A model generated the notes under the pieces. It made no database searches. It saw nothing but the letters and a program-made list of their open reading frames with translations, and was not told where the DNA came from. DNA of 64,000 bases from Thioalkalivibrio halophilus (lineage in GTDB: Bacteria; Pseudomonadota; Gammaproteobacteria; Ectothiorhodospirales; Ectothiorhodospiraceae), in contig NZ_MUZR01000007.1 in assembly GCF_001995255.1 (NCBI RefSeq), positions 1-64,000 of the forward strand, in the 5' to 3' direction. Position 1 is the first letter of the stretch, and each line of letters opens with the position of its first letter. The position numbers and the translations under genes were made by a program. This document shows, piece after piece, positions 1-3,437 of this stretch.

Positions 1-163
1 ACTCCCAGGCGCGCATCGCCTCCAGGCGCTCGGATTCGCTCATCTGCTCCCAGTGTTCCTCCGGCACGCCGTAGATGCGCGGGGCACAGGCGGCCAGCAT
101 CAGGGCCAGGCCCAGCACGGCGGAAACCAGGGCGAAGCGGGCAACGGATCGGGTCATGGTCAT
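1..163 (-). CDS. Small lipoprotein, N-terminal part only (runs off the window)
   Basis: The minus-strand frame opens with two ATGs two codons apart (163 and 157) and reads a positively charged start, a hydrophobic stretch and a lipobox ending Leu-Ala-Ala-Cys about 26 residues in. The Cys would be lipidated and the protein anchored to the inner or outer membrane. After it the chain is hydrophilic and acidic (Tyr-Gly-Val-Pro-Glu-Glu, then Ser-Glu-Ser-Glu-Arg). The gene is cut by the window edge after about 54 codons, so neither length nor family can be judged. The start lies about 95 bases from the inverted-repeat block, so its promoter should sit in that gap. Confidence 0.7.
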   Translation of the reverse strand, partial: MTMTRSVARFALVSAVLGLALMLAACAPRIYGVPEEHWEQMSESERLEAMRAWE

Positions 164-257
164 GGCGGCAATCCCTGTCGGATGGAACATGATGGCCGCC
201 GGGGCGGCTCGGTCAGTCTATCGTGCCGGGGCTGCCTGAGTGGCGGCTGAACGGCCA

Positions 258-499
258 TGCCCGTGCTTGACCGCTGCCGCGGGGTCTTGAGCTGGCGCTG
301 CGGAGTCCGGGGCTTTCGGCTGCCGCCGGGGGGTGCGCTCTCTCGCGAGCGCGCCGCGAGGTCCTTTCTTGCTTGCCCAAGAAAGGACCCAAAGAAGGGC
401 ACCCGGAGCTCGCCCGGGAACCTTGCTCCGGGCACCTCGCGCCGGCGGCGCCGAACTCGCGAAGCTGCGCTTCGCTCAGACATCCGGCGCCTTGTTTCC
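258..499. repeat. Left arm of a long inverted repeat
   Basis: Bases 258-397 recur in reverse complement at 1121-1262 with only scattered mismatches. A second block, whose exact 30-base core is 453-482, recurs in reverse complement at 1014-1043. Between the two blocks (398-443) the arms have diverged. Inside the arm, 361-370 and 379-388 are perfect inverted repeats of ten bases around an eight-base loop, so this arm alone can fold into a hairpin. No coding signal is seen: short open frames occur on both strands but give Arg/Pro/Gly-rich shadow protein. Similar GTCCTTTCTT...AAGAAAGGAC elements are, from memory, dispersed in several gammaproteobacterial genomes. Confidence 0.85.
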
Positions 500-999
500 G
501 GCGCGAGGCACCCTCCGCAAGGGGCTCGCAACGGGAGGGGGTAAACCGGAGGCGTTCCGGCCATTGGTGCCCGGGTCCCGGCCCGCTTCATCGCGGGGCG
601 CTCGAATCGTGCGTTTCCTGGTTCCTGATGCAAGGGCGGCCCGGTGCACCAACGGGTTCAAGCTTTGGTACGGGCCCTTCGCAGAGCTCATTTCCGTCCA
701 TCCTTGCAAAGGAATCGCGTGCGGGCAGGGGCCGGACCCACCCCCAAGCCCTGATGGAAGAAGGTCATGCGGCTCGGCAGGGCATGCCCATGGCCCTACC
801 CGGGCACCCTCCCGGTGCCGGGTGTGCAAAGGTGGCTGTGGGAGGCGAGCCCTCTCGCCGATCCGGCATGATCGGTCGCCAACGATCCTGTTCTCGGCCG
901 GGCCGTTCACAGCCGCGGCCTGCCCGCCTGGCGGAAAAGGAACGGGCGGTGGGCCGGCGGCCCCGTTTGCCGCACCGAGCGCAGAGGTCGGGTGCGGGA
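500..999. other. Gene-free spacer between the inverted-repeat arms
   Basis: About 500 bases lie between the arms. I see no credible gene here: open frames exist on both strands but have no ribosome-binding site, no recognisable family and the residue bias of GC-rich noncoding DNA. The only structures noted are the short palindrome around 800-822 (CCCGG...CCGGG) and a REP-like stem at 838-863. No transposase, integrase or terminal target-site duplication was recognised. Confidence 0.6.
838..863. repeat. REP-like short stem-loop
   Basis: The sequence GTGGGAGGCGAG-CCCT-CTCGCC has the shape of Pseudomonas-type REP units, which begin GTGGGAGC and carry a short GC stem. Only one copy is seen in the window, so identity as a REP rests on resemblance alone. 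Confidence 0.3.
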
Positions 1000-1262
1000 G
1001 AAAAGGCGCTGCTTGTCTGAGCGAAGCGCAGCTTCGCGAGTTCAGCGCCGCCCGCGCCCGGCCTCGGAGCGAGGGAATCCCGGGCCGCGTCAGCGGACCG
1101 GGATGCGGCAGTCGGGGTGACTTCTTTGGGTCCTTTCTTGGGCAAGCAAGAAAGGACCTCGCGGCGCGCTCGCGAGAGAGCGCAACACCCCCGGCGGCAG
1201 CCGAAAACCGCCGACTCCGCAGCGTCAGCTCAAGGCCTGGCGGCAGCGGTCAAGCACGGGCA
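1000..1262. repeat. Right arm of the long inverted repeat
   Basis: This is the reverse complement of the left arm: 1014-1043 matches 453-482 exactly and 1121-1262 matches 258-397 with few differences. It carries the same internal hairpin (1130-1139 pairing with 1148-1157). It begins 65 bases beyond the proS stop codon, so proS transcripts run into it and the hairpins could end or stabilise that message. That role is inference; no T-run typical of an intrinsic terminator follows the stem. Confidence 0.85.
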
Positions 1263-1327
1263 CCAGCAGCCCGATCGCTTGCTTGCAAGCTCCTGCAGCC
1301 GCATCCGGGCGCCGGTGCGGGTGGCGC

Positions 1328-3046
1328 CTACGCGCCGTGCCCCGTGCGTTCGCGCAGGGCCGCCACCAGCCCGTCCATCGGCAGGTGTTCGGCCTCGCCG
1401 GCGGTGCGGGCCTGGTATTCGAGCTCGCCGGCGTCCAGGCCGCGCTCGCCGATCACGATCCGGTGCGGGATGCCGATCAGCTCCATGTCGGCGAACATTA
1501 CGCCGGGGCGCTGTTCGCGATCGTCCAGCAGGACCTCGAAGCCGGCCGCCTGCAGCTCGTCGTGCAGCTGTTCCGCGGCCTCGCGCACGCGCTGCGACTT
1601 CTTCGCGCCGATCGGGCACAGGGCGATGTCGAACGGGGCGATGGCGGTGGGCCAGCAGATGCCGCGCTCGTCGGAGTTCTGCTCGATGGCGGCGGCGACC
1701 ACGCGCGAGACGCCGATGCCGTAGCAGCCCATGGTGACGATCTGCTCGCGCCCGTCCTCGTCCAGCACCCGGGCGCCCAGGGCCTCGGAGTACTTGTCGC
1801 CGAGCTGGAAGATATGGCCGACCTCGATGCCGCGGCGGATCTCGAGGGGGCCGGAGCCGTCGGGCGCGGGTTCGCCCTCGGTGATGTTGCGCAGGTCGGC
1901 ACTTTCCGGGCGCGGCAGGTCGCGTTCCCAGTTGACGCCGGTCAGGTGGTGGCCGTCCTCGTTGGCGCCGACCACCATGTCGGCCATGGCGAGCACGGCG
2001 TGGTCGGCCAGCACCGGGATCGGGCTGTCCACCGGGCCCAGCGAGCCGGGCTCGGCACCGAACGCGGTACGGATCTCGCCCGCCTCCGCCATGCGCAGGG
2101 GTTCGGCGATCCAGGGGTGCTTCTCGGCCTTGACGTCGTTGAGTTCGTGGTCGCCGCGCAGCACCAGGGCGACCAGATCGGCGTCGACCGCGTCGCTGGC
2201 GGCCACCACCAGGGTCTTGACCGTGCGTTCGGTCGGCACGTCGAGGAAGGCCGCGAGCTCGGCGATGGTGTGCACGTCCGGGGTGGCGATCTTCTGCAGT
2301 TCCTGCGCGGGCGCGGTCGGCGCCGCGGCGGACGGGCAGGGCGCGAGTTCGACGTTGGCGGCGAATCCGCCCGGGGAGAAGGCGATCGCGTCCTCGCCGG
2401 AGGCGGCCAGCACGTGGAATTCGTGCGAGGCGTTGCCCCCGATCGCGCCGGTATCGGCTTCCACCGCACGGAAGTCGAGGCCGCAGCGCTGGAAGATGCG
2501 GCAGTAGGCATCGTGCATCTGCTGGTAGGTCTGCCCCAGCGAGTCGGCATCCAGGTGGAAGGAGTAGGCGTCCTTCATCAGGAATTCGCGGGCGCGCATC
2601 ACGCCGAAGCGCGGGCGGCGCTCGTCGCGGAACTTGGTCTGGATCTGGTAGTAGTTCACCGGCAGCTGGCGGTAGCTGCGGATCTCGCGGCGGACCAGGT
2701 CGGTGATGACCTCTTCGTGGGTCGGGCCATAGCAGAAATCGCGTTCGTGGCGGTCCTTGATGCGCAGCAGCTCGGCCCCGTAGAAGTCCCAGCGTCCGGA
2801 TTCCTGCCACAGCTCGGCCGGCTGGATGGCCGGCATCAGCACCTCCAGGCCCCCGGCGCGGTCCATCTCCTCGCGCACGATGTTCTCCACCCGGCGCAGC
2901 ACGCGCAGGCCCAGCGGCAGCCAGGTGTACAGCCCGGAGGCGAGGCGGCGGATGTAGCCGGCGCGCAGCATCAGCTGGTGGGAGACGATCTCGGCGTCGG
3001 CCGGGGTTTCCTTCAGGGTGTTCAGCGGGAATTGCGAGACGCGCAT
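1328..3046 (-). CDS. proS: Prolyl-tRNA synthetase, bacterial type with editing insertion
   Basis: Charges tRNA-Pro with proline in the cytoplasm. At 572 residues it has the normal length of the bacterial class II ProRS. Seen in order: the N-terminal catalytic half with motif 1 around Ala-Gly-Tyr-Ile-Arg-Arg, motif 2 with Phe-Arg-Asp-Glu near residue 140 followed by the family stretch [10 protein letters not shown], the inserted YbaK-type editing domain (about 225-400) that clears mischarged Ala-tRNA, motif 3 with Gly-Ile-Gly-Val-Ser-Arg near 450, and an anticodon-binding C-terminal domain. The chosen ATG matches the conserved start. It lies 49 bases downstream of the tautomerase gene and is probably co-transcribed with it. 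Confidence 0.97.
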
Positions 3047-3095
3047 GGGGCTCGGGCCTTGTGGTCGGTGGTCGTTGAGCGGACGGGGTTCGGGA

Positions 3096-3437
3096 TCAGA
3101 ACGTGGTGCCGTTGGTGCCCCAGAAATGCCGCGGGGCGTCGGCGAACTCGATGTAGACGCGCGCCGGCTCCACGCCCAGTTCGGCCTGCAGGGCGTCGCA
3201 CAGCTTGCGTGACAGCTCGCGGGTCAGGCCCTCGGGCAGGCCGATGCTCTTGAGTTCGCAGTAGGCGAGTGCCTCGGTGCTGCCGCCGAAACGCATGTGG
3301 GCGTTGTGGCCGAGGGCGACCATCACGTAGCCCTCGGGCTTGTTCAGCCATTCGGCGACCGCGGTCGACAGGCGGGCGGTGACGGCATCCGGATCGGCGG
3401 GCAGGGCAACGTTGGTCTCGATACGCAGCAGTGGCAT
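3096..3437 (-). CDS. MIF-family (macrophage migration inhibitory factor) tautomerase homologue
   Basis: A 113-residue protein of the tautomerase/MIF superfamily, which act as trimers. After Met removal it starts with Pro, the catalytic base of the superfamily, and Lys33 sits in Asn-Lys-Pro-Glu-Gly-Tyr, matching the MIF active-site Lys32 and its Pro-x-x-Tyr context. Further MIF signatures are Gly-Ser-Thr-Glu-Ala-Leu-Ala near 53 and the C-terminal Trp-Gly-Thr-Asn-Gly-Thr-Thr-Phe. I start at 3437 rather than at an upstream in-frame codon because only this ATG puts Pro at position 2 and it has a GGGAGA ribosome-binding site. The family enolises phenylpyruvate or dopachrome in vitro; the bacterial substrate is unknown. 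Confidence 0.85.

Follow-up and report, generated by a model that had tools for sequence, protein, structure and literature searches.

What is the long inverted repeat that lies beside proS in Thioalkalivibrio halophilus, and why does it lie there? The window, meaning the whole stretch of 64,000 nucleotides that was analysed, opens with this repeat. The original prediction had offered three explanations for it: a pair of dispersed repeats in opposite orientation, a non-autonomous element, or a structured RNA end for proS.

Structure of the element

The repeat predicted at 258-1262 is real and consists of three pairs of inverted arms, 85-97% complementary. The outer arms (258-397 with 1121-1262) agreed in position with the arm comparison, which gave the pairs 258-354/1166-1262 (97 nt, 85% complementary) and 328-397/1121-1190 (70 nt, 97% complementary). 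The inner arms had been placed at 453-482/1014-1043; they are inverted copies, and the actual pair is longer (439-502/994-1057; 64 nt, 88% complementary). Each outer arm carries its own hairpin as predicted, with a stem of 12 bp rather than ten (360-371/378-389 and 1129-1140/1147-1158). The arm hairpin pattern was matched twice in the window and never in 100 shuffles. The features, with the basis of each in parentheses, were as follows; G012 is another genome of the genus.

1-163, minus strand: 5' portion of a likely lipoprotein gene across the element from proS, running off the window (sequence)
258-1262, no strand: the composite inverted repeat in full, first of two copies in its own genome (arm comparison and second copy)
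258-334, plus strand: outer terminal arm, left, of a type found in the own genome and G012 (arm and copy alignments)
335-352, plus strand: GC-rich hairpin GCGCTC..GAGCGC, left, 5' of a U-rich tract (read from the sequence)
341-361, plus strand: terminator-like stem and TCCTTTCTTG, left arm (terminator scan)
360-401, plus strand: pseudoknot-like motif, left, with stem 360-371/378-389, loop 372-377 (CTTGCC), linker 390-397 and loop complement GGCA at 398-401 (sequence)
439-502, plus strand: inner arm, left, with a GCGAAGC/GCTTCGC hairpin at 459-475 (arm comparison; hairpin read from the sequence)
503-993, no strand: centre with no recognisable gene (ORFs and Pfam; aligned with the second copy and the G012 copy)
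838-861, plus strand: REP-like palindrome GTGGGAGGCGAGCCCTCTCGCCGA in the centre, dispersed in the own genome (genome search)
994-1057, minus strand: inner arm, right (arm comparison)
1117-1158, minus strand: right motif, with left-type loop (CTTGCC) and downstream tetranucleotide TCAC (motif alignments)
1166-1262, minus strand: outer arm, right (arm and copy comparison)
1274-1300, minus strand: degenerate REP-like sequence next to the element, toward proS (copy and G012 comparison)
1328-3046, minus strand: proS, its 3' end toward the element and about 65 bp from it (ORF, Pfam and relatives)

The best named relative of the proS product was that of Thioalkalivibrio sp. ALJT (90% amino-acid identity). 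The gene at 1-163 is presumably a lipoprotein gene, judged by what we take to be a lipobox, and the stretch is collinear in G012. The degenerate REP-like sequence at 1274-1300 has its counterpart beside proS in G012 despite the inverted element there.

The core was predicted to be gene-free, and it holds mechanical ORFs only. A protein-coding centre was rejected, since the four ORFs tested across 160-1145 matched no Pfam family; proS was clear in the same comparison. Positions 1-3200 contained no known Rfam RNA family, the only two matches lying far below their gathering scores. Terminator-like matches amounted to one weak site per arm, on both strands (2 against 1.0 expected), each a GC hairpin followed by TCCTTTCTTG, and no U-run directly follows the conserved hairpin. 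In the left arm of the window copy the motif is intact, loop CTTGCC being accompanied by GGCA downstream. In the right arm loop pairing is broken because the left-type loop CTTGCC faces the tetranucleotide TCAC; the right arm of copy 2 has loop TGTGAA with TCAC, and a matching loop is also present in G012.

The own genome (G000; 97 contigs, 2.87 Mb) has the roughly 1-kb element twice in full, so the arms are not single-copy, the outcome that had been named as counting against the prediction. Copy 2, at C7:126495-127637, is 125 kb from copy 1 on one contig, runs the opposite way and is 93.5% identical to it. It is situated between a cytochrome b561 gene and valS (named from the sequence), both converging on it, and its centre has an extra REP-bearing insertion beside the REP-like palindrome. 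The REP-like 24-mer of the centre had 22 short matches in the own genome besides the two element copies. No DNA similar to the element was found in the plasmids searched. Copy 2 was considered as the valS site of other species and rejected, because the element is 5' of valS there and 3' here. In the cytochrome b561-valS interval of the closest relative, G012 (L199), all that is present of the element is about 65 bp of one outer arm, probably the scar of a deletion.

Related elements in Thioalkalivibrio

Relatives of the element, their inverted arms about 200 bp long, were found in many genomes of this soda-lake genus in a search of 58 genomes including the own, a search that scored eight candidates per genome and is therefore not a copy count; matches in another genus of the family were short. 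Thirty genomes of the genus were then searched for exact matches to the arm hairpin patterns (left CTTTCTTGCTTGCCCAAGAAAG, right CTTCTTTGCACGAGCAAAGAAG). Fifteen of the 30 had matches, against none in the reversed control: 17-31 per genome in 12 of them, seven in G008, three in G000 and one in G012. At two matches per intact element, the richer genomes carry roughly 8-16 copies.

The 73 loci examined represent 72 distinct elements in 14 genomes, L030 and L267 being one element. Most are 0.7-0.85 kb long. Where both hairpins were found they stand in constant order, mostly 505-635 bp apart; two spacings were short (70 and 348 bp) and two long (788 and 1804 bp). A 55-bp terminal inverted repeat, sometimes doubled, ends nearly every element outside G000 and G012, whose elements have similar arms and a different outer terminus; G012 yielded only one copy. 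Of the predicted pair of dispersed repeats, the inward-facing dispersed arms were confirmed, and they belong to one composite dispersed element, not to a separate pair.

Several elements have been altered internally. One, in the K90mix-like genome G029, has an IS110-family transposase gene between its arms (L230:4379-5371). Further hairpin-forming sequence resembling TAGGGTGCGGTTGAGCGCAGCGAAACGCACC is nested in the centres of L050, L056, L061 and L064. In L237, L231, L060 and L058 the outer stem half of some arms is swapped, as a module, for a palindrome resembling GTTGTTGATCAACAAC.

The pseudoknot-like motif and its spread

The arm set comprised 90 distinct left arms, a few of them from G222 of another family, and 81 distinct right arms. 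All 12 stem pairs were present in 66 of the left and 56 of the right arms, and 8-11 pairs in the remainder. The four outer stem pairs, which lie outside the search pattern, covary (GGTA/TACC, GGTC/GACC, GGCA/TGCC, GTTA/TAAC, GTGA/TCAC). The hairpin is followed on its 3' side by an A-rich linker and often by a tetranucleotide complementary to loop positions 3-6, of which there are seven versions.

Among 369 gammaproteobacterial genomes of 271 genera, 20 genomes (18 genera) had a related hairpin (TTTCTTTGCTTGCCCAAAGAAA, one mismatch allowed), with at most 19 per genome and none in the reversed control. A stricter search gave 4 of 274 genomes, two of them outside Thioalkalivibrio. Counted on the sense strand, loop pairing was present in 19 of the 32 sense hairpins from outside the genus, where shuffling gave a mean of 4.4 and a maximum of 11, and in 22 of the 29 from inside it (shuffled mean 9.7, maximum 18). 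The failures include true exceptions, L362, L377 and L378 among them, and some antisense matches that passed the filter.

A MAFFT alignment of 40 motifs displaced the loop complement between groups. Pairs were counted on 23 rows from other families, leaving out 15 Thioalkalivibrio rows, L370:582-637 and L180. In these 23 motifs the structure pairs in 92.4% of cells and the loop helix alone in 79.3%. Two-sided changes occurred in 53 cells against 16.1 in shuffled data (0 of 500 shuffles as high), and slid versions of the structure gave 5-13. Two of the five covariation measures were unremarkable: pairs with two-sided change (7 against 6.1) and further pair types (15 against 14.3). Template-switch correction of quasi-palindromes can also yield stem covariation.

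Fixed sites, both orientations and exchanged content

Sites were classed by comparing 3.5-kb flanks, with one cluster split by hand and 'mixed' links set aside. This gave 24 site classes for the 72 elements; 17 of the classes occur in two or more genomes with homologous flanks. Both orientations occur at 13 of the 17. Among 72 pairs with both flanks homologous, which are not mutually independent, 37 had the element in the same and 35 in the inverted orientation; left out of this count were 31 pairs with one homologous flank, 17 whose flanks paired inconsistently and 16 whose alignments were short. The mix was steady with flank identity (10 of 22 pairs inverted at flank identities of at least 93%). 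Site S6 had a single orientation in all 10 pairs.

Short-read assembly of repeats might by itself produce such differences of orientation and content. Copies within one genome share exact runs of up to 247 nt, so some swaps are possible in draft genomes, and several contigs start within elements. Against this, the inverted halves of one element share at most 64 nt, with one exception (99 nt, L243). G029 takes part in 28 of the 72 pairs, 17 of them inverted, and appears to be the K90mix genome, finished with Sanger/454 sequence according to parts of its description (PMC3368412). In G012, with its one copy found, there is no second copy to mix in. Assembly error is accordingly limited, and as the general explanation it is highly improbable.

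Programmed inversion, in which a recombinase turns the element round at its site to switch the two neighbouring genes, would be consistent with the 35 inverted pairs and with the window site. In G012 the element at that site is inverted and 94.9% identical, between collinear flanks (93.8% over 257 bp and 91.9% over 2.7 kb). Of the inverted pairs measured, this alone is compatible with the same DNA having been flipped where it lay. Other measured inverted pairs are about as alike as paralogues: in L060/L249 the flanks are 99.2% identical and the inverted elements 85.9%, paralogue means being 73.9-85.0% in four genomes. The terminal inverted repeats of inverted pairs match the same flank no better than the same element end (80.6 against 79.5%; 19 of 21 pairs measurable). 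Positions 1-1700 of the window have no promoter-like site. Simple in-place inversion as a general rule was rejected on the L060/L249 identities and the terminal repeats, and a programmed switch is very unlikely. The same two observations instead suggest that the measured orientation differences are mostly replacements by another copy. Elements in the same-orientation pairs L059/L245 and L242/L251 are about 99% identical, and exchange must therefore be intermittent.

The element centres give a similar picture. In a comparison covering 61 of the 72 elements (G000, G012 and some elements that could not be delimited were left out), 52 had both an orthologous and a same-genome partner available; the best match of the centre was at the same site in 9, in the same genome in 19 and elsewhere in 24. 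Since interiors have mostly been exchanged between sites, recombination between element copies is likely. Two sites of G005 (L239/L241) have swapped flanks, as would be expected if recombination between two elements had rearranged the chromosome.

Element-less alleles were examined at three sites. They contained a remnant of the terminal inverted repeat (G005), two terminal repeats fused directly or nearly so (G001, G029), or intergenic DNA so different that it would not align. At none of the three was there a clean empty site with a target duplication, so an insertion event was never captured.

These alleles bear on the main rival account, that the element is selfish, REP/MITE-like DNA. It would be bounded by terminal inverted repeats, non-autonomous, mobilised in trans and tolerated where promoters are absent, as between converging genes, with the hairpins recognised by a single-stranded-DNA transposase. 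The 55-bp terminal repeats fit this well, as does the patchy spread of both the family and the related hairpin. Y1 transposase domains are found in 26 of the 30 genus genomes, including all 15 with the element. They are also found in 11 of the 15 without it, and the four genomes lacking both are incomplete assemblies (58-80%); no specific link therefore follows, and a role of RAYTs is neither supported nor excluded. Because different species share sites whose flanks are homologous, elements seem to have moved to new sites only rarely in recent times. Besides the missing clean empty sites and target duplications, the sole transposase within a copy is the nested IS110, and no other gene-bearing version was found among the 72 elements. 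The predicted non-autonomous element, for which no encoded partner was found, is thus possible and unproved. A selfish element at promoter-free sites accounts for most of the facts nearly as well as the 3'-end reading developed below, and we regard it as a credible but somewhat less probable explanation.

Gene context and proposed function

Converging genes flank 18 of the 24 site classes as judged by a simple ORF caller, with five sites tandem and one divergent. Other neighbouring gene pairs at the same loci were convergent in 54 of 411 cases, and in 20 of 115 where the gap was 60-400 bp. The gene caller is crude, and Pfam was used as a check at 9 of the 24 sites inside the genus and at part of the loci outside it. 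At every one of the nine sites tested, all in G029, the genes on both sides had Pfam matches on the strands assigned to them (for example nadC/scpB, proC/inositol-phosphatase and lipA/lipoyl-ligase); at one site the neighbour is a transposase.

Outside the genus, 17 of 33 motifs lie in sense after a Pfam-supported gene within about 300 bp, 5 do not and 11 were unassigned. The genes so followed include anmK and citrate synthase (converging, L359), citrate synthase (L360), metG, dnaJ, an OmpA-family gene and a TauE gene. The neighbouring gene points away at five motifs (L361 GST, L365 helicase, L368 fliL, L369 proC, L374 yebC), and the 3'-end rule is therefore a tendency. Inverted motif pairs occur here too (L359, L360, L365, L366, L368, L374).

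The 3' end of citrate synthase carries the motif in two different families (L359, L360), and TauE and proC genes are neighbours both at Thioalkalivibrio sites and in other families (L370/L229, L369/L060). These recurrent neighbours may hint at shared ancient sites.

With moderate confidence, we favour a REP-like, non-coding composite that serves the 3' ends of converging transcripts, putatively as RNA, and whose copies are kept alike by recombining with one another. The element has two inward-facing, multi-hairpin arms around a variable centre, and each arm points from the gene end to the centre, so that read-through from either gene would make the same kind of fold first. A transcript entering from the neighbouring gene would then fold as a pseudoknot at the mRNA 3' end, where it might help to end transcription or protect that end, and the mirror-image layout could serve two converging genes at once. 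Against this reading, 6 of the 24 sites are not convergent, including that of the window copy, which stands in tandem after proS and before the probable lipoprotein gene. The structured RNA end proposed for proS was partly right, as to location at gene 3' ends; a role as RNA is putative.

Long palindromes are cut by nucleases such as SbcCD. The palindrome formed by the arms may break or stall replication, with repair from another copy. Repeated repair of this kind would homogenise the family, randomise orientation, sometimes delete the centre and occasionally rearrange the chromosome.

A broader proposal is put forward only tentatively, and as a whole it is more doubtful than not. It holds that the widespread motif (TTTCTTTG, a six-nucleotide loop, CAAAGAAA, an A-rich linker and a loop-complementary tetranucleotide) may be a mirror-paired, two-way 3'-end device. 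The Thioalkalivibrio family would be a self-maintaining set of 'placeholders': their addresses would stay fixed, and palindrome-triggered repair would repeatedly replace the occupant with a sister copy facing one way or the other.

Fixed addresses with exchangeable two-way occupants make it possible to follow palindrome-driven recombination as it occurs naturally in a bacterial chromosome. The covarying loop pairing supplies a testable fold of RNA, or of single-stranded DNA, from a sequence with neither gene nor Rfam match. A 3'-end role, if true, would explain why such repeats occur as mirror-image pairs.

Comparison with known systems

MITEs and related elements share with this one the terminal inverted repeats and the absence of any coding capacity found. 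They differ in that the three sites gave no target duplication or clean empty site and the 72 elements included no autonomous parent. The location between convergent genes and the mirror symmetry recall intrinsic bidirectional terminators; the present element is far larger, is multi-copy with exchange, and has no canonical U-tract after the conserved stem.

REPINs likewise consist of two inverted repeats around a spacer, as set out in parts of PMC3116915, where RAYTs are also reported for Thioalkalivibrio HL-EbGR7. Here, however, the arms are about 200 bp, positions are kept across species, and Y1 domains extend beyond the element-bearing genomes.

A further likeness is to REP/BIME sequences (GTAG and CGTC superfamilies), which the relevant sections of PMC3733652 describe as intergenic, palindromic, multi-copy and located at 3' ends and between convergent ORFs; convergent and unidirectional sites are favoured by REPs too, and GTAG-1 REPs are recorded there for Thioalkalivibrio K90mix. 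A REP-like unit lies inside the element, and the intergenic, convergent enrichment is shared (18 of 24). A short unit in very many copies was not observed. As the original prediction noted, the block exceeds usual REP/BIME units, being a single composite of 0.7-1 kb (about 1 kb in the window) against 20-40 bp, and its roughly 8-16 copies in the richer genomes compare with usually more than 100 for REPs in the account given in part of PMC2817692. It further differs in having two distinguishable arms in fixed order and a loop that pairs with a downstream tetranucleotide. No description of the element was found in the open-licence literature searched. Its parts are familiar, namely REPs, inverted pairs and convergent sites; relative to that literature, what is new is that one large composite unites loop pairing that covaries with fixed addresses whose occupants are interchangeable and face either way.
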